From: Syntrophales bacterium
Lineage (GTDB): Bacteria > Desulfobacterota > Syntrophia > Syntrophales > UBA4778
Assembly: GCA_028712885.1 (NCBI GenBank)
Contig: JAQTPK010000008.1
Coordinates: forward strand, 19,096 to 83,095
Reading direction: 5' to 3'
DNA length: 64,000 nt
Shown here one piece after another: positions 43,016 through 51,295 of this stretch. The notes under the pieces were generated by a model. The model saw only the letters and a list, made by a program, of their open reading frames with translations, was not told the DNA's origin and ran no database searches. Made by a program: the position numbers and the translations under genes. Each line of letters begins with the position of its first letter. Positions within the stretch are counted from its first letter, which is position 1.

Positions 43016-44383
43016 TCAGGCCTCCTGGCAAGCCCCAACCTCCGGGGGAGTCCTGGAATAAATTTTCAGATGCTGAAAGGATTCCTCCGTCAGCGATGCA
43101 TCACGGCAGGGGAGAAGGGTGTTGTTATGGAAGAGGGGCTCCCGCTCGATATCCAGGGAGGATGCCGCTATGCAATCTTTCCAGATAGCCGTCCCCGGGA
43201 TGGGGGAAAACTCCGTCAGGTACGGGCGGCCGCCGCACGACCGGACGAATTCCAGACTCTCTTTGATTTCGGCAAATTCCTGTCCCGGCAGACCGCACAG
43301 GATATACACCCCGATGTCCATTTCCCGGAAGCCGGATTCCCGCAGCCGGGCGATCGCCTCCCTCAGCTCTTCCGAGCGGACCTTTCCCCCGGTTGCGGCC
43401 TGCCTTTCCGAGTCCGATGTTTCAAAGCCGAGCCGCACCGTCCGGAAGCCGGCACGGAACATCAGGGAGGCGGCTTCGGCCGTCAGCCAGCGGGCGTGCA
43501 GCCCGTTGGGCGTATGGAAAAAGCAGTCCAGTTTCCTGCGGATTATTTCCCGGAGGAGAGGGATGGCCGAACTTTCCGCTTCCGCGAGGAAACCGTCATC
43601 GTAAAAGGAAAACTCTCTGACCCCGAATTTACGGCGCCAGAATTCAATCTCATCCGCCGTCCTTGCGGGGTCCCGGACCAGAAATTTCTTCCGGAGCAGG
43701 TGCGAAGCGCAGTACGTGCACCGGAAACGGCAGCCATGGGATGACAGGATCGGGACCTGCTCCAGACGGGAGAGCAGGTCGAATGCAGGATAGGGGAAGG
43801 TGTCGGGATCGTTTGCGTTCGGAATGCACAGCGGCGGGAATCCGAATGTTTTTTCGAGAAAGGACGGAACGGCTTCACAGCCGCCGGGCAGGACGAAATC
43901 CGCCCCCGAGTGGCTGACAGCGTGGCTGGTGCACAATGAGGCGTAGACCCCGCCCAGGATGACGGGGGCGCCGGGGAAGACCTCCCGGACCGAGCGGATG
44001 GATTCAAACACTCCCGGGTACCAGTAGGTCATCATCGAGGTGACAAACACCGCGTCGGGAGGATGCTTTCGGAGCAGTTCATCTCTGAGCATCCGGGGAC
44101 TGATGCCGAAGCGCCGGTATTTTCTCCTGGCGAACGCGATCGGTTCGGGCTTCGGGATTACCTGAAAGGGAAACTTGCCTCGGCCGGTATGCCTGCGCAC
44201 AGGGACCCGGAGTTCGCCGTCGAACGGTATTCCGGGGTGCCACGGGTCCATGCAGTCGATCAGGTCTACCTCATGGCCGTTTTCGCGCAGCAGGGCCGCC
44301 AGATAAAGCAGGCCGAGAGGCTTCATCCAGAAATCGAAAGCCGAAAAATCGTGGATATTCGGGTTGATTAGAAGGGCGCGCAT
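43016..44383 (-). CDS. B12-binding-type radical SAM protein
   Basis: 455 residues. The N-terminal half is a cobalamin-binding-like Rossmann domain (MRALLINPN, LGLLYLAALLRENGHEVDLIDC), followed by a radical SAM core with CRFRCTYC near 218 and LGFETSDSERQAATGG. Members of this family include methyltransferases and enzymes acting on lipids or cofactors; no specific reaction can be given. Confidence 0.85.
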   Translation of the reverse strand: MRALLINPNIHDFSAFDFWMKPLGLLYLAALLRENGHEVDLIDCMDPWHPGIPFDGELRVPVRRHTGRGKFPFQVIPKPEPIAFARRKYRRFGISPRMLRDELLRKHPPDAVFVTSMMTYWYPGVFESIRSVREVFPGAPVILGGVYASLCTSHAVSHSGADFVLPGGCEAVPSFLEKTFGFPPLCIPNANDPDTFPYPAFDLLSRLEQVPILSSHGCRFRCTYCASHLLRKKFLVRDPARTADEIEFWRRKFGVREFSFYDDGFLAEAESSAIPLLREIIRRKLDCFFHTPNGLHARWLTAEAASLMFRAGFRTVRLGFETSDSERQAATGGKVRSEELREAIARLRESGFREMDIGVYILCGLPGQEFAEIKESLEFVRSCGGRPYLTEFSPIPGTAIWKDCIAASSLDIEREPLFHNNTLLPCRDASLTEESFQHLKIYSRTPPEVGACQEA

Positions 44384-44495: not shown

Positions 44496-45944
44496 TTATC
44501 TTTTCGCTTTTTCTTTTGAGAAAAGTGACTTCTTTACCTTCTGCAGCGATTCGATTTCGCGGTCCAGTTCGGCCGTCCTCCCCGGGGATGAGGGGTGTTT
44601 CAATGCCTCGCGGAAATGAAAAAGGGCGCTTTCGCTTTTACTTTTTTTCTTGAAGTAAAGCCCGAAGTGGTAATGCGATTCTCCGGGATTTCCGGTTCGG
44701 CCGTAATTCATCGCCACAGCGTACAGGACCTGGTCGTCTCCGGGATATCTCTTGCGGTATTTCAGGAAGAGGTCGAGCGAGGTCTTGTAGTCGCCCAGCT
44801 CGTCATAACCGCGCGCAAGCTGAAGCAGCGTTTCGTAATCGTTTTCCTGGAGCATGTAGGCCTGGCGGAGTGTATTTACGGCATCAACAGTTCGGCCGGC
44901 TTTCAGATAAGCGAGGCCGAGTTGGCGGATGACATCGACGTCCGAGGGCGCGACTGCGAGCGCCTTTCGGAATCCCGCCAGGGCCTCTTCCGTCTGCCCC
45001 TTGCGGCTCCGCACCACAGAAATCCCGAAAAGACCCTCCAGGTCCTTCGGATTCCGTTTCAATCTGCCGGCGAAGTATCTCTCCGCAACGGAGGGATCTT
45101 TCTCTTCGAGGACGAGGATGCTCTTGACGCGGGGCAGGCCGCCCAGAATGTTCAGCTTCCCGCCCGACTTGTACCGGGATTCGATCAGCGCGTCGAGGTA
45201 CCGGATCCGCTCGTCCGTGCCGGGGTGGGACAGGAAATAGGACGGAATCGAGCTGGAGTAAAACTCGTAATTTTTCATCGTTTTCATGAACGTGAGCATT
45301 CCTCTTCCGCTGTACCCCGCCGCCGCGAGATACGAAATGCCGAGCCGGTCCGCCTCTTCCTCGTTCTCCCGGCTGTAGGCAAGCTGCATGTGGGACGCCG
45401 TCGCCATCGAGAGTCCGAGGACCGCTTCCGTTCCCGTGCCTCCGCCGAGCAGAATGCCCGCGACGATGGCGGCAAGGCTGGCCATGCCGATTTTCTGGGA
45501 TTTTTCAATATTGCGGGCGATATGCCGGCAATTGACATGGGCGATTTCATGGGCGATAACGCCGGCCAACTCGGATTCGTTGTCCACAAGGCCGATAAGG
45601 CCCCGATTGATGTATACGTATCCGCCCGGAGTGGCAAAGGCGTTGATCGCACTGCTGTTCAGGATGAAGAACCGGAAATCAAAGGAGGGAGTTCCGCTCT
45701 GGGCCAGTATTTTCCGGCCGAGACGGTTTATGTAATCCTCGGATTTGACGTCGTGAAACAGTAACTTGGCGCCCTCGATCTTCTGGTGGATTTCCTTTCC
45801 CAGCTTGTTCTCGTCATCAATGGAAAAGGAGGCGTCGGCCGGGCGCGCGAGGAGGGCGACGCCGATTATCACCGGAAGAATAATCAGCAATCTGCAAAAA
45901 AGAACGCGGCGGCGGGCCGGTTTATTACGAAATAAGCTTTCCAT
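44496..45944 (-). CDS. BepA-like M48 metalloprotease with TPR repeats
   Basis: 482 residues; signal peptide (LLIILPVIIGVALLARPADA). M48 zinc motif HEIAHVNCRH near 130, second zinc-ligand region ENEEEADRLGISYL, then a TPR superhelix from about 270 (AGRLKRNPKDLEGLFGIS and following). BepA degrades or assembles LptD and other outer-membrane proteins, so a periplasmic quality-control role is expected. Confidence 0.92.
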   Translation of the reverse strand: MESLFRNKPARRRVLFCRLLIILPVIIGVALLARPADASFSIDDENKLGKEIHQKIEGAKLLFHDVKSEDYINRLGRKILAQSGTPSFDFRFFILNSSAINAFATPGGYVYINRGLIGLVDNESELAGVIAHEIAHVNCRHIARNIEKSQKIGMASLAAIVAGILLGGGTGTEAVLGLSMATASHMQLAYSRENEEEADRLGISYLAAAGYSGRGMLTFMKTMKNYEFYSSSIPSYFLSHPGTDERIRYLDALIESRYKSGGKLNILGGLPRVKSILVLEEKDPSVAERYFAGRLKRNPKDLEGLFGISVVRSRKGQTEEALAGFRKALAVAPSDVDVIRQLGLAYLKAGRTVDAVNTLRQAYMLQENDYETLLQLARGYDELGDYKTSLDLFLKYRKRYPGDDQVLYAVAMNYGRTGNPGESHYHFGLYFKKKSKSESALFHFREALKHPSSPGRTAELDREIESLQKVKKSLFSKEKAKR

Positions 45945-46031: not shown

Positions 46032-46124
46032 TTTGAGCCAAATCCGAGCTGTTTTATGCGCAGCGGATATGATATTCAGTCCGGGTCAATAAGGAGCCGG
46101 CGGGAGAGGCCGGCGGGAGGGAAA

Positions 46125-47327
46125 ATGGATAAAAAACTGATCCACAGGAGGAGCGTGATCGTCGAATCATTCGAAACCGGATCTGGTCTGGTTATAGAAG
46201 GAAGGCTTCAGGACGAGCGTTTTTTCCCATCATATTATTATACGCGCGAGTCGTTTGTCGATCCCGGTGTAATTCACGGAATGAGGGTCAGGCTCCAGGT
46301 ATCGATGCCGGACATGACCATCCGGACGGCGGAGGCGGAGATCGGTGAAGTGCCTCTTCCGGAATGCAGGGAGATCAGGGAATCCGTCGGGTTGCTGGCA
46401 GGAACCCCCATCAGGAAGGGATTCAGCGGAAAGGTGAGAGGCATGTTCGGAGGGAAAAAAGGCTGTCTTCACATTATGAATCTTATTCTGGTCATGGGTT
46501 CCGCAGCCATGCAGGGGTTCTGGGCGTATTACAGCCGGGTGCGGAAAGATGACCGGGTCAGGAAGCCCGCATTCGATGAATCCCTGCTTGTCGACAGCTG
46601 CTGGCTCTGGCGCAGCGACGGGCCCCTGTGGGAGAAATTCAGGAAAGCGCAGAATATTCCGGACGCCTTGCCGCGGAAACACATAATTACAATCGACGGT
46701 CCGGCCGGCGCGGGCAAGAGCACGATTGCCCGGGAAGTGGCCAGGCGCCTTTCTTATCGATACCTCGATACGGGCGCCCTGTACCGGGCTCTCGCATACA
46801 AGGCCCTGCGGAAGGGAATTTCCGGCGAAGAAGGCCTGGCCTCTCTCTGCCGGGAGACCCGGATCGAAGTGCGGCTCGACCAGGATAAGACAAGCGTGTT
46901 CGTGGACGGGGAAGATGTCACCGGCAGGATCCGGACTCCGGAGATCGGAATGGCGGCTTCGGAGATTTCCGCTCTTCCGGTGGTCCGGGAGGCGCTGCTG
47001 TCCGTGCAGAGGGACATAGCGAAGGAGGGCGGCATAGTAGCGGAGGGCCGTGATATGGGAACGGTCGTATTTCCGGAGGCGGATTTCAAGTTCTTTCTCG
47101 ACGCCTCCCCGGAGGAAAGGGGCCGCAGGAGATTCCTGGAGCTGAGGGAAAAGGACCCCGAAATTGAAGCGGAAGGCGTTTTGAGGGACCTTGAGAAGCG
47201 CGACATCCAGGACAGGAAGAGAAAAATCGCGCCGCTCAAGCCGCCGAAAGGGGCGATAATCGTCGACAGCACCGGATTAAGCGTGGAGGATGTAGTGGGA
47301 AATGTTATCAAAGCAATCGATAAGTAA
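46125..47327 (+). CDS. cmk: DUF2889-cytidylate kinase fusion protein
   Basis: 400 residues in one uninterrupted frame from ATG 46125 (GGGAGGG ribosome site). Residues 1 to about 185 match DUF2889: IEGRLQDERFFP, VHGMRVRLQVSMPDMTIRTAEAEIG-type core, GFSGKVRGMFGGKKGCLHIMNLI. Residues about 186-400 are a complete cytidylate kinase: Walker A IDGPAGAGKSTIA, YLDTGALYRALA, and VAEGRDMGTVVFPEADFKFFLDA, which phosphorylates CMP/dCMP. The cmk-rpsA order is conventional, so the kinase is the housekeeping copy and the fused domain is the oddity. Confidence 0.9.
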   Translation: MDKKLIHRRSVIVESFETGSGLVIEGRLQDERFFPSYYYTRESFVDPGVIHGMRVRLQVSMPDMTIRTAEAEIGEVPLPECREIRESVGLLAGTPIRKGFSGKVRGMFGGKKGCLHIMNLILVMGSAAMQGFWAYYSRVRKDDRVRKPAFDESLLVDSCWLWRSDGPLWEKFRKAQNIPDALPRKHIITIDGPAGAGKSTIAREVARRLSYRYLDTGALYRALAYKALRKGISGEEGLASLCRETRIEVRLDQDKTSVFVDGEDVTGRIRTPEIGMAASEISALPVVREALLSVQRDIAKEGGIVAEGRDMGTVVFPEADFKFFLDASPEERGRRRFLELREKDPEIEAEGVLRDLEKRDIQDRKRKIAPLKPPKGAIIVDSTGLSVEDVVGNVIKAIDK

Positions 47328-47521: not shown

Positions 47522-49279
47522 ATGGCAATCGTCAACAACCGGGAGATGGTAAACGAACAAAAGAAACTGGAAGATGAAGGCGGAGAGATGTCCGGAATTC
47601 AGGAATCCGAACACAAGATGATGAGTTTCAGCGAGTTGTACGAACAGAGCCTTCAGGAGGTCCCGCTCGGGGAAGTGGTGACGGGCAGGGTAGTTCAGCT
47701 CGGAAACGATGTAGTAATGGTGGACGTGGGGTACAAGACGGAAGGGCAGATCCCGGCTGCCGAGCTGAAAGACGAAAATGGAAATTTCACCATATCCGTA
47801 GGCGACATGATCGAGGTCCTGGTTGACCGGAAAGACGAGGAGTACAATCTCATCCTGTCCCGGGATAAGGCGACCCGGATGAGGATGTGGAATGAAGTCA
47901 AGAAGGCCTGCGAAACGAACGGGCTGATAAAAGGAACGATCACCGAGAGAGTAAAAGGCGGTTTCTCGGTTGACATAGGAATAACGGCATTTTTGCCCGG
48001 CTCACAGGTGGACGTCCGTCCCGTCAAGGATATGAACAGCTACATCGGACAGGTGCTTCAGTTCAACATTCTCAGTTATGACCGCAAGCGAAACAACGTC
48101 GTGCTTTCCCGCAGGTCCATTCTCGAAAAAGAGAGAGAAGCCGAAAGAAAAATGATCCTCGAATCAATCGAGGAAGGCAAAATTTTAGAAGGCCTCATAA
48201 AAAATATTACTGACTACGGCGTCTTTATCGATCTCGGCGGAATTGACGGTCTCCTGCATGTAACCGACATCTCCTGGGGAAAAATAAGCCGGCCGTCCGA
48301 CAGTTTCTCCAAGGGCGACAAGATCAGTGTAAAAGTCCTCTCCTTCGACAGGGAAAAAGGCAGGATATCGCTGGGGCTGAAGCAGCTCAAGGAAAATCCC
48401 TGGGACGGCGTGCTGGGCAGATACCCGGTCGGGTCCGTTTCCGAGGGCAAGGTCGTCAGCATCATGGATTACGGAGCCTTCGTGGAGCTGGAGGAGGGAG
48501 TGGAAGGCCTTATCCATATTTCCGAAATGTTCTGGACGACCAAGAAATTCCGCCATCCCTCAAAGATTCTCAATATCGGGGATCAGATAAAGGTCATGGT
48601 CCTCGACATCAATCCCGAAGCCAAGAGAATATCCCTCGGTCTCAAACAGACTGTTTCCAACCCCTGGATGATCCTGAAAGATAAGTACCCCCCCGGGACC
48701 GTCGTAAAGGGCGTCGTACGCAATATTGCCGACTTCGGGATTTTCGTCGGCGTGGAGGAGGGAATAGACGGTCTGGTCCACGTTTCCGATATCTCATGGA
48801 AGCAGCGTGTAAAGCATCCGTCGGAGTTCTTCAAAAAGGGACAGGAGATAGAGGCGGTCGTTCTCAATATCGACGTGGAGAACGAAAAATTCTCCCTCGG
48901 CATCAAGCAGCTGGAAAAGAACCCCTGGGAGGAAGTCGCTTCCCGCTACAACCAAGGATCGGTGATTACGGGAAAAATAACGAACGTTACTGATTTCGGA
49001 CTTTTTGTCGAGATTGAAGAAGGAATAGAGGGTCTGATCCATGTTTCGGAAATCGGGAACCGGAAAGTAAAATCCCCCTCGGAGATATACAACGTCGGCG
49101 ATGCGGTTTCCGCCATGATCAAGAATATCGATCCGAGAAACAAAAAGATCAGGCTGAGCATCAAGGACTATGAATCTTCCATGAACGAAGTTCCGTCCAA
49201 TCAGTACATCAATAACCAGGAAAAGGTCGCCTCCAATCTCGGAAAAGCCCTTGCAAACATCAAAGTCTCGGATGTCTGA
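47522..49279 (+). CDS. rpsA: 30S ribosomal protein S1
   Basis: About 585 residues from ATG 47522 (GGGGGGAG site; the track's TTG 47507 is inside that site). Six S1 OB-fold repeats, opening at GEVVTGRVVQ, LIKGTITERV, ILEGLIKNITDYGVF, VSEGKVVSIMDYGAF, VVKGVVRNIADFGIF and VITGKITNVTDFGLF. The last four carry the strongest RNA-binding consensus. S1 binds mRNA leaders on the 30S subunit. Confidence 0.96.
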   Translation: MAIVNNREMVNEQKKLEDEGGEMSGIQESEHKMMSFSELYEQSLQEVPLGEVVTGRVVQLGNDVVMVDVGYKTEGQIPAAELKDENGNFTISVGDMIEVLVDRKDEEYNLILSRDKATRMRMWNEVKKACETNGLIKGTITERVKGGFSVDIGITAFLPGSQVDVRPVKDMNSYIGQVLQFNILSYDRKRNNVVLSRRSILEKEREAERKMILESIEEGKILEGLIKNITDYGVFIDLGGIDGLLHVTDISWGKISRPSDSFSKGDKISVKVLSFDREKGRISLGLKQLKENPWDGVLGRYPVGSVSEGKVVSIMDYGAFVELEEGVEGLIHISEMFWTTKKFRHPSKILNIGDQIKVMVLDINPEAKRISLGLKQTVSNPWMILKDKYPPGTVVKGVVRNIADFGIFVGVEEGIDGLVHVSDISWKQRVKHPSEFFKKGQEIEAVVLNIDVENEKFSLGIKQLEKNPWEEVASRYNQGSVITGKITNVTDFGLFVEIEEGIEGLIHVSEIGNRKVKSPSEIYNVGDAVSAMIKNIDPRNKKIRLSIKDYESSMNEVPSNQYINNQEKVASNLGKALANIKVSDV

Positions 49280-49470: not shown

Positions 49471-50370
49471 ATGAGAAAGCATCCCGTTCTTTCAGGCGTC
49501 CTGCTGCTGTTCGCCGTGGGCATCCTTCTGTTCGTCTTCACGTCCGGCCTGTCCGTTTTCCGGGGAGAGAGGAAATCCCTCTCCGGCGACAGGGTGGGGA
49601 TCGTTCCCATCAAGGGAATAATTACCGATTCGAAGACGATCATAGAGCAGATAACAAAATATGGAGACGACAGCAGGATCAAAGCGGTCGTGATCCGAAT
49701 CGACTCGCCCGGCGGCGGCGTCGCCCCTTCACAGGAGATATACGATGCGGTCCTGGAACTGAGAAAAAAGAAGAACGTGGTCGCTTCCATGGGATCGGTC
49801 GCCGCGTCCGGCGGATACTATATCGCCTGCGCCGCTGAGAGGATAATCGCCAACCCCGGAAGCGTCACCGGGAGCATCGGTGCGGTAATGCATTTTTCTA
49901 ATTTCGAAGAAACCTTGAAGAAACTCGGCATTCGGGCATCGGTGGTGAAAAGCGGCAGGTACAAGGACAGCGGCTCGCCCCTGCGGGACATGACGAGCGA
50001 AGAGAGAAACCTGTTTCAGGGGGTTATCGACGACATTCATGACCAGTTTGTCGAGGCTGTCTCCGCGAACAGAAAAATACCCAAGGAGAAGATGAAGGAA
50101 TACGCGGACGGAAGGATCTTTACCGGCCGCCAGGCGCTGAAGCTCGGACTTGTGGATTCGCTCGGGGACCTGGAATCGGCGGTGCGGACGGTGGCGGAGC
50201 TTGCAGGCATCAAAGGTAAGCCGGACATCGTCTATCCCAAGGAGAAGGGGATTTCATTCTGGAAATATCTCCTGGAAGAGGCAAGTTCGCAAATCACAGG
50301 GAAACTGAAAGAGGAATTAACGGGAGCATATTTCCTTTCGCCGGCGTCCCGGATGCGTATTGAATACTGA
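49471..50370 (+). CDS. sppA: signal peptide peptidase SppA
   Basis: 299-residue membrane-anchored serine protease of the short SppA type. N-terminal anchor GVLLLFAVGILLFVFTSGL; VVIRIDSPGGGVAPSQE; nucleophile Ser in GSVAASGGYYIACAA; general-base Lys in VVKSGRYKDSGSP. It degrades cleaved signal peptides. Downstream of rpsA, as in several deltaproteobacteria. Confidence 0.93.
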   Translation: MRKHPVLSGVLLLFAVGILLFVFTSGLSVFRGERKSLSGDRVGIVPIKGIITDSKTIIEQITKYGDDSRIKAVVIRIDSPGGGVAPSQEIYDAVLELRKKKNVVASMGSVAASGGYYIACAAERIIANPGSVTGSIGAVMHFSNFEETLKKLGIRASVVKSGRYKDSGSPLRDMTSEERNLFQGVIDDIHDQFVEAVSANRKIPKEKMKEYADGRIFTGRQALKLGLVDSLGDLESAVRTVAELAGIKGKPDIVYPKEKGISFWKYLLEEASSQITGKLKEELTGAYFLSPASRMRIEY

Positions 50371-50521: not shown

Positions 50522-51295
50522 GTGGAATTCCGGGAAATCAAAGTAGAAAAAGAGCACGGGTACGCGATTGTGACCCTCAACCGTCCTTCGGAAATGAATG
50601 CGCTGACCAGGGTGATGCGTCTCGAGCTGGAACGCTGTTTCCAAGGCCTGGAGGATGACGAGTCCGTGCGGGCCGTAATAATTACCGGAGGTGATTATAT
50701 ATTTTCCGCAGGCCTCGACCTGAATGAAATCGAGGCCCTGCCGGACGGCGAGATCGACGATTTCTTCCATTCAATCATACGATATCTGCAACGGATTTAT
50801 CAGTTTAAGAAGCCTGTTATTGCAGCCGTCGGCGGGATCGCCCTTGGAGGGGGTTTCAATCTTGCGCTCGTCTGCGACATTATCATCGCTTCGGAAAGCG
50901 CGATCTTCGGACACCCGGAGCTGAAATTCGGTTTGAATCCCCTGTTCGATCCCCTGAGCCGCATAGTCGGAATATCCAAAGCCAAGGAGATAACCATGCT
51001 GGGCGAACCGATCGGCGCCATCGAGGCGTTAAGGATCGGCCTGGTCAACAAGGTAGCCCAGCCGGACACGCTGATGCCGGAAGCCAGGCTGATGGCCGGA
51101 GAGCTCGCAAAACGGTCTGTAAAAGCCGTCGAAGCGGTAAAGAGAATATCGGATGTGGTCTTCCGCATGGAAAAATCATCCGCGCTCGAGTACGAGTTCG
51201 AGATATCGGCGCTGCTTTTCTCGAGATCCGAGCGGAAGGAATGCATGAAAGCCTTTATGGAGGAGTTGCAGAGAAGGAAGAAACGGCAAACTTAG
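50522..51295 (+). CDS. enoyl-CoA hydratase/isomerase family protein
   Basis: 257-residue crotonase-fold protein. Oxyanion-hole segments SAGLDLNEIE and AVGGIALGGGFNLALVCD; catalytic-position glutamates in FGHPELKFGL and ISKAKEITML are both present, so hydratase activity is plausible. The usual IPGxGGTQRL is replaced by NPLFDPLSRIVG. Start GTG 50522. Could serve fatty-acid or aromatic ring-cleavage beta-oxidation. Confidence 0.88.
   Translation: MEFREIKVEKEHGYAIVTLNRPSEMNALTRVMRLELERCFQGLEDDESVRAVIITGGDYIFSAGLDLNEIEALPDGEIDDFFHSIIRYLQRIYQFKKPVIAAVGGIALGGGFNLALVCDIIIASESAIFGHPELKFGLNPLFDPLSRIVGISKAKEITMLGEPIGAIEALRIGLVNKVAQPDTLMPEARLMAGELAKRSVKAVEAVKRISDVVFRMEKSSALEYEFEISALLFSRSERKECMKAFMEELQRRKKRQT

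Follow-up and report, generated by a model that had tools for sequence, protein, structure and literature searches.

Several proteins that join CMP kinase to another domain have been described, namely PanC-CMK (PRK13477), AroA-CMK (PRK11860) and CMK-Der GTPase (PRK09518), each of which carries a complete (d)CMP kinase and a second domain in one chain. The same architecture is found in the 400-aa product of the gene at 46125–47327 (+) of the window, the 64,000 nt stretch of a Syntrophales genome analyzed here, but this protein matches only the CMK parts of the three models, far under their cut-offs. The PanC, AroA and Der domains are absent from it, and the partner is instead DUF2889. The kinase and its neighbors are the same as those of the ordinary cmk gene (TIGR00017) in the M48-cmk-rpsA-sppA block of the order, in which DUF2889 is missing or encoded by a separate gene in all matching genomes but two. 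In DUF2889::PHP proteins, DUF2889 is likewise located N-terminal to a phosphate-handling enzyme, but the enzyme is a different one, the DUF2889 is of a shorter type that comes with a second, partly degenerate copy, and DUF169::CoaE is encoded adjacently. As for DUF2889 itself, one paper states that the domain was found to be related to a SCOP superfamily, left unnamed there (PMC4520260), and another lists it in a core-gene table (PMC7253759). The open-access literature searched gives no function for DUF2889 and no paper combining two of DUF169, dephospho-CoA kinase and the PHP domain; as most subscription papers fall outside this scope, such absence is weak evidence.

The reading frame around the fusion gene is open from 46005 and continues as a single frame through 47327 (+). 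Pfam assigned residues 7–130 (46143–46514) to DUF2889 (PF11136; 92.8 bits against a cut-off of 25, E = 2.4e-26, full model 1–123 of 123), and the conservation visible in the alignment extends past this domain to approximately residue 178, including C159 and W162RxxGP. Residues 188–399 (46686–47321) constitute a full-length cytidylate kinase domain (PF02224; 236 bits, E = 4e-70, model positions 1–210 of 211), and the NCBIfam cmk equivalog TIGR00017 was matched over residues 185–397 (239.3 bits against a cut-off of 135.55, model positions 2–216 of 217). The kinase motifs GPAGAGKST (P-loop), DTGALYRA and GRDMGTVVFP were recognized in the translation by eye from knowledge of the family. This gene was the only cmk match found by profile search in the source genome (2.93 Mb, 97 contigs, 99% complete). 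When the DUF2889 half was compared with five relatives, the differences were 0.57–0.69 at codon position 3 and 0.31–0.45 at positions 1 and 2; because they concentrate at the third position, this half behaves as coding sequence. The sequence-only reading had described one open frame with DUF2889 followed by a full CMK directly upstream of rpsA, and this description was borne out with exact coordinates, both Pfam models being complete, rpsA lying at 47522–49279, and the proposed HMM search of the 400-residue product recovering DUF2889. Judged by its sequence, the fusion would be a two-domain enzyme, the C-terminal half of which is the predicted CMP/dCMP kinase of the cell.

To find further fusions, we used the whole fused protein as the query against a sample of 155 genomes of the order, 144 of which gave a match. 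The sample of the class comprises these same 155 genomes, in keeping with an order that is very probably Syntrophales, the single order in NCBI's class Syntrophia. Fused frames were present in two of the matching genomes, the source genome and G022, which belongs to another family. The G022 protein of 408 aa is 45% identical over residues 2–395 in one continuous match and has Pfam matches to both DUF2889 and the kinase, and the G022 genome likewise contains a single cmk match in the profile search. The same architecture, which the sequence-only reading had proposed to look for in related genomes, does recur, and the continuity of the match over the junction means that no frameshift is needed there. 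A third fusion suggested by tblastn in G045 (L003) was rejected: it is really two genes, the second of which starts on the stop codon of the first, and the end of its DUF2889 contains N's of the assembly.

The two fused proteins are sisters neither in the kinase tree nor in the DUF2889 tree, and forcing them into one clade was not rejected (AU p = 0.20 and 0.35); from these trees, the two fusions likely arose independently. The DUF2889 tree has two clades, separated with 100/100 support: the members of one are mainly cmk-linked, and those of the other lie in acyl-CoA contexts, where the neighbors are fumarylacetoacetate hydrolase, acyl-CoA synthetase and similar genes, as named from their sequences. 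Members of the cmk-type clade are also located away from cmk (L041, L052 and L002). The source genome encodes a second DUF2889 (G000:C45, L102:4039-4473, minus strand), which lacks the first ~35 residues and follows an apparent thiolase fragment; this gene may be a degenerated member of the cmk-type clade.

A Shine-Dalgarno-like sequence, GGGAGG (46115–46120), is located 4 nt ahead of the fusion ATG at 46125. The junction from the last conserved DUF2889 motif to the kinase (residues 170–184, 46632–46676) contains no ATG or GTG, and the TTG at 46668, which is codon 182 and precedes the Pfam kinase match by six codons, is the sole potential start codon of these three types close ahead of the kinase. 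If the kinase were made separately from this internal start, the fusion would be only apparent. We regard this as very unlikely, as the ribosome site at this TTG is poor (the best upstream match to AGGAGG is 4/6, with a spacing of 2 nt), the DUF2889 half is in frame and conserved, and the fused gene of G022 has no ATG, GTG or TTG within the 12 codons preceding its kinase. The start and ribosome site just ahead of the kinase, which the sequence-only reading had named as the finding that would undo the fusion, are thus not supported. It is very unlikely that an artefact of sequencing or assembly deleted a stop codon between two genes. Both fused sequences do come from draft assemblies with many contigs, but an unrelated assembly from another family shows the identical architecture, and the junction offers no ATG or GTG from which a separate cmk could start. 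An Rfam search and a scan for promoters and terminators around the fusion gene yielded nothing useful.

The fusion gene is flanked by a divergent gene for an M48 peptidase with TPR repeats (44496–45944, −) and, downstream on the plus strand, by rpsA for a ribosomal protein S1-type product with six S1 domain stretches, an sppA-type signal peptide peptidase gene (Peptidase_S49; 49471–50370) and an enoyl-CoA hydratase family gene (50522–51295). All four neighbors are conserved in relatives, in which the block reads M48 peptidase in one direction and DUF2889, optionally VanZ, cmk, rpsA and sppA in the other, followed by enoyl-CoA hydratase. A gene for a B12-binding radical SAM protein (43016–44383, −) adjoins the M48 peptidase gene in the window and lies outside the block conserved in relatives.

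Among the 155 genomes, profile searches detected DUF2889 in 86 and cmk in 141. When the coordinates of both searches were compared by hand, 29 genomes (two fused and 27 separate) proved to have a DUF2889 ahead of cmk in the same orientation, with 110–753 bp separating the HMM matches. With the two fused genomes included, this linkage spans ten family groups; a partial DUF2889 ahead of cmk at a contig end in G010 makes a thirtieth case. As regards chance, most genomes having any DUF2889 have only one or two copies, yet one lies within ~0.75 kb upstream of cmk in 29 of 155. As DUF2889 is encoded upstream of cmk by a separate gene in these relatives, the fusion unites two old operon neighbors. 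The separate genes overlap in several genomes and lie close together in others, so that the loss of the gene boundary is an easy step. In one relative (L036, G049:C283), the cmk downstream of a separate DUF2889 gene is interrupted by what looks like a frameshift and reads as two frames that overlap; this broken cmk is apparently an error or a pseudogene.

Many members of the order, among them G002 of the same family, have the M48-cmk-rpsA block without DUF2889, and DUF2889 is therefore dispensable beside cmk. Furthermore, roughly half of the genomes with the linkage have a VanZ-like gene between DUF2889 and cmk; five cases were seen directly (L083:6757-7191, L093:5803-6255, L094:4985-5509, L098:6048-6539 and L099:5642-6082), and the rest were inferred from the size of the gap. 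In G032, the VanZ-like gene stands alone ahead of cmk (L215:5129-5590). Because this gene can intervene, DUF2889 and cmk need not adjoin or be fused.

DUF2889 had been regarded as otherwise a stand-alone protein, which proved too narrow: it is an operon neighbor of cmk across the order and an N-terminal fusion partner of PHP phosphoesterases in other lineages. More than 20 loci fetched from our sample of the phylum, belonging to several families (L185, L191–L197, L226–L228 and L230–L244), contain a cassette of two DUF2889 genes (copies a and b), a PHP phosphoesterase gene and a DUF169 gene, the last of which is often fused to CoaE; in some loci, mostly near contig ends, the cassette is partial. 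Copy b is fused in front of the PHP phosphoesterase in seven loci (L195, L196, L197, L230, L237, L238 and L244). The phosphoesterase is a distant relative of 3′,5′-nucleoside bisphosphate phosphatase, and the DUF169::CoaE frame is the sole dephospho-CoA kinase found in 7 of the 16 genomes searched. Copy b has kept C81 and C114 in 20 of 20 sequences and H116 in 19 of 20, and copy a has partly lost this Cys/His site, as if it were a non-catalytic partner, to judge from its residues.

In four genomes, DUF2889 is encoded directly downstream of purA for adenylosuccinate synthetase (L162:1161-3136, L167:1843-3713, L172:2721-4570 and L178:2769-4755), with a 4 bp overlap in L167; serA is located upstream in these loci, and a purine-type permease gene downstream in L162. 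Many other DUF2889 genes are placed in clusters for acyl-CoA or aromatic degradation. On Proteobacteria plasmids, they mostly lie among genes for CoA transferases, acyl-CoA dehydrogenases and enoyl-CoA hydratases, although some records differ. A frame of 339 aa (L229:992-2011) contains DUF2889 only at residues 241–317, and the preceding ~240 residues have no Pfam match.

We defined the conserved residues from 45 diverse DUF2889 members, the fusion protein among them. D30, P77, C81, C114 and C159 are invariant in this set and are all present in the fusion protein, and G93, G99 and G113 are nearly invariant. His51 (46275–46277) is found in 40 of the 45 and is mostly replaced by Tyr in the PHP-linked b copies. 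His116, which forms a Cys-x-His motif with C114 (46464–46472), is found in 34 of the 45. C159 (46599–46601) is kept in 20 of 20 a copies and in 15 of 20 b copies. The AF2 model of the domain is confident (pLDDT 92, pTM 0.85) and places strands at residues 7–18, 21–32, 48–60 and 65–73, followed by helices at 79–91, 100–108 and 115–137. His51 is positioned at the start of a long strand, Cys81 (46365–46367) near the N-terminus of helix 79–91, and Cys114/His116 at the N-terminus of helix 115–137. From this arrangement, we infer that DUF2889 carries a putative Cys/His site composed of C81, C114, H116 and possibly C159.

In its order of elements, the model resembles by eye the IscU/SufU/SufE fold (NifU_N, PF01592): both have two long strands, a Cys at the start of the next helix and Cys/His at the start of a long helix. 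The placement of the invariant Cys and Asp relative to the cluster ligands of IscU was likewise judged by eye. IscU and SufU appeared among the weak Foldseek matches of the model (E = 0.2–0.9; best IscU E = 0.21, TM at most 0.39), and lipoate ligase structures were weak matches in both PDB lists; the C-terminal domain of lipoate ligase is classed with SufE/NifU, but the lists do not show which part of the ligase is aligned, and these matches were given no weight. However, an IscU/SufE-like fold was not accepted, as the Foldseek matches were not significant and the model of a distant member had no IscU in its top 50; hhalign of DUF2889 with NifU_N gave E = 0.5–0.6 over 22 columns only, and the resemblance is a topological lead at most. 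Searches of PDB sequences with the domain and its profile gave no match, and Foldseek returned nothing significant when two AF2 models were compared with the PDB and one with viral models; none of the PDB and Foldseek searches revealed significant similarity to RNA-binding folds. Phage and defence profile libraries contained no relevant match.

What the fusion may do can be read in several ways. The main rival to a functional pairing, which we consider quite possible, is that two adjacent operon genes of unrelated function became one frame and that the kinase tolerates the extra domain with no functional link between the two. The scarcity of fused frames (2 of the 144 matching genomes), the frequent absence of the DUF2889 gene beside cmk, the VanZ-like gene that can separate the pair, and the joining of cmk to other domains in PRK13477, PRK11860 and PRK09518 all agree with this. 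The retention of the linkage over ten family groups does not, nor do the fusions of DUF2889 to PHP elsewhere and G022, which has the same architecture in another family and is non-sister in both trees, even if a single event is not rejected. DUF2889 might instead bind CoA, acyl-CoA or a CoA-like nucleotide, so that the fusion would tie the supply of CTP to CoA status. Its presence in acyl-CoA and aromatic-CoA clusters and next to dephospho-CoA kinase and the bisphosphate phosphatase-like PHP phosphoesterase would fit, as would the facts that PanC-CMK fusions exist and that bacterial CoaBC consumes CTP; but the purA context has no direct fit, no CoA gene besides enoyl-CoA hydratase lies near cmk in this block, and we find this reading unlikely. 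The proposal that the fusion points to a nucleotide- or RNA-linked role fared unevenly. The nucleotide link gains some support from the company of CMK, PurA, PHP phosphoesterase and dephospho-CoA kinase and, given how many DUF2889 genes belong to clusters for acyl-CoA or aromatic degradation, is only one of several readings; nothing points to RNA. That DUF2889 is a nucleotide- or RNA-binding domain targeting or regulating CMP kinase is improbable, since rpsA, which could be added to that company, is located downstream of cmk whether or not DUF2889 is present, the acyl-CoA contexts do not suit it, and RNA-binding folds are not matched.

We tentatively prefer the view that DUF2889, with its putative Cys/His site, is accessory to nucleotide and CoA phosphoryl-transfer enzymes and serves them, here within a true two-domain CMK enzyme. 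The two parts probably work together, because they are neighbors in dozens of relatives and because DUF2889 is joined to other phosphate-handling enzymes. The N-terminal half would belong to a cmk-associated DUF2889 subfamily, which relatives encode separately, immediately ahead of cmk, and the gene boundary would have been lost where the two touched or overlapped. The Cys/His site probably binds a metal or a thiol/CoA-type ligand, and the domain may act on or regulate its partners, CMK here and PHP phosphoesterase and dephospho-CoA kinase elsewhere; tethering would then secure a contact already made by the separate proteins. This preferred view is supported by the completeness of the fusion, the sole cmk, G022, the linkage across ten family groups, the PHP fusions, the purA neighbors and the conserved Cys/His residues. 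The dispensability of DUF2889, the interposed VanZ-like gene, the cmk-type members away from cmk, the acyl-CoA contexts and the lack of a fold match count against it.

It is somewhat unlikely, on our estimate, that the role is as broad as that of a general partner of CMK, dephospho-CoA kinase, PHP phosphoesterase and PurA, with the Cys/His site sensing or carrying a metal or CoA-type ligand. If so, the cmk fusion and the cassette of copies a and b, PHP and DUF169::CoaE would be two independent outcomes of one role. The fusions name concrete enzymes against which DUF2889 can be tested, namely CMP kinase and the PHP phosphoesterase encoded beside dephospho-CoA kinase, and it would be new for the supply of CTP to be tied to a sensor that has a Cys/His site or is linked to CoA.
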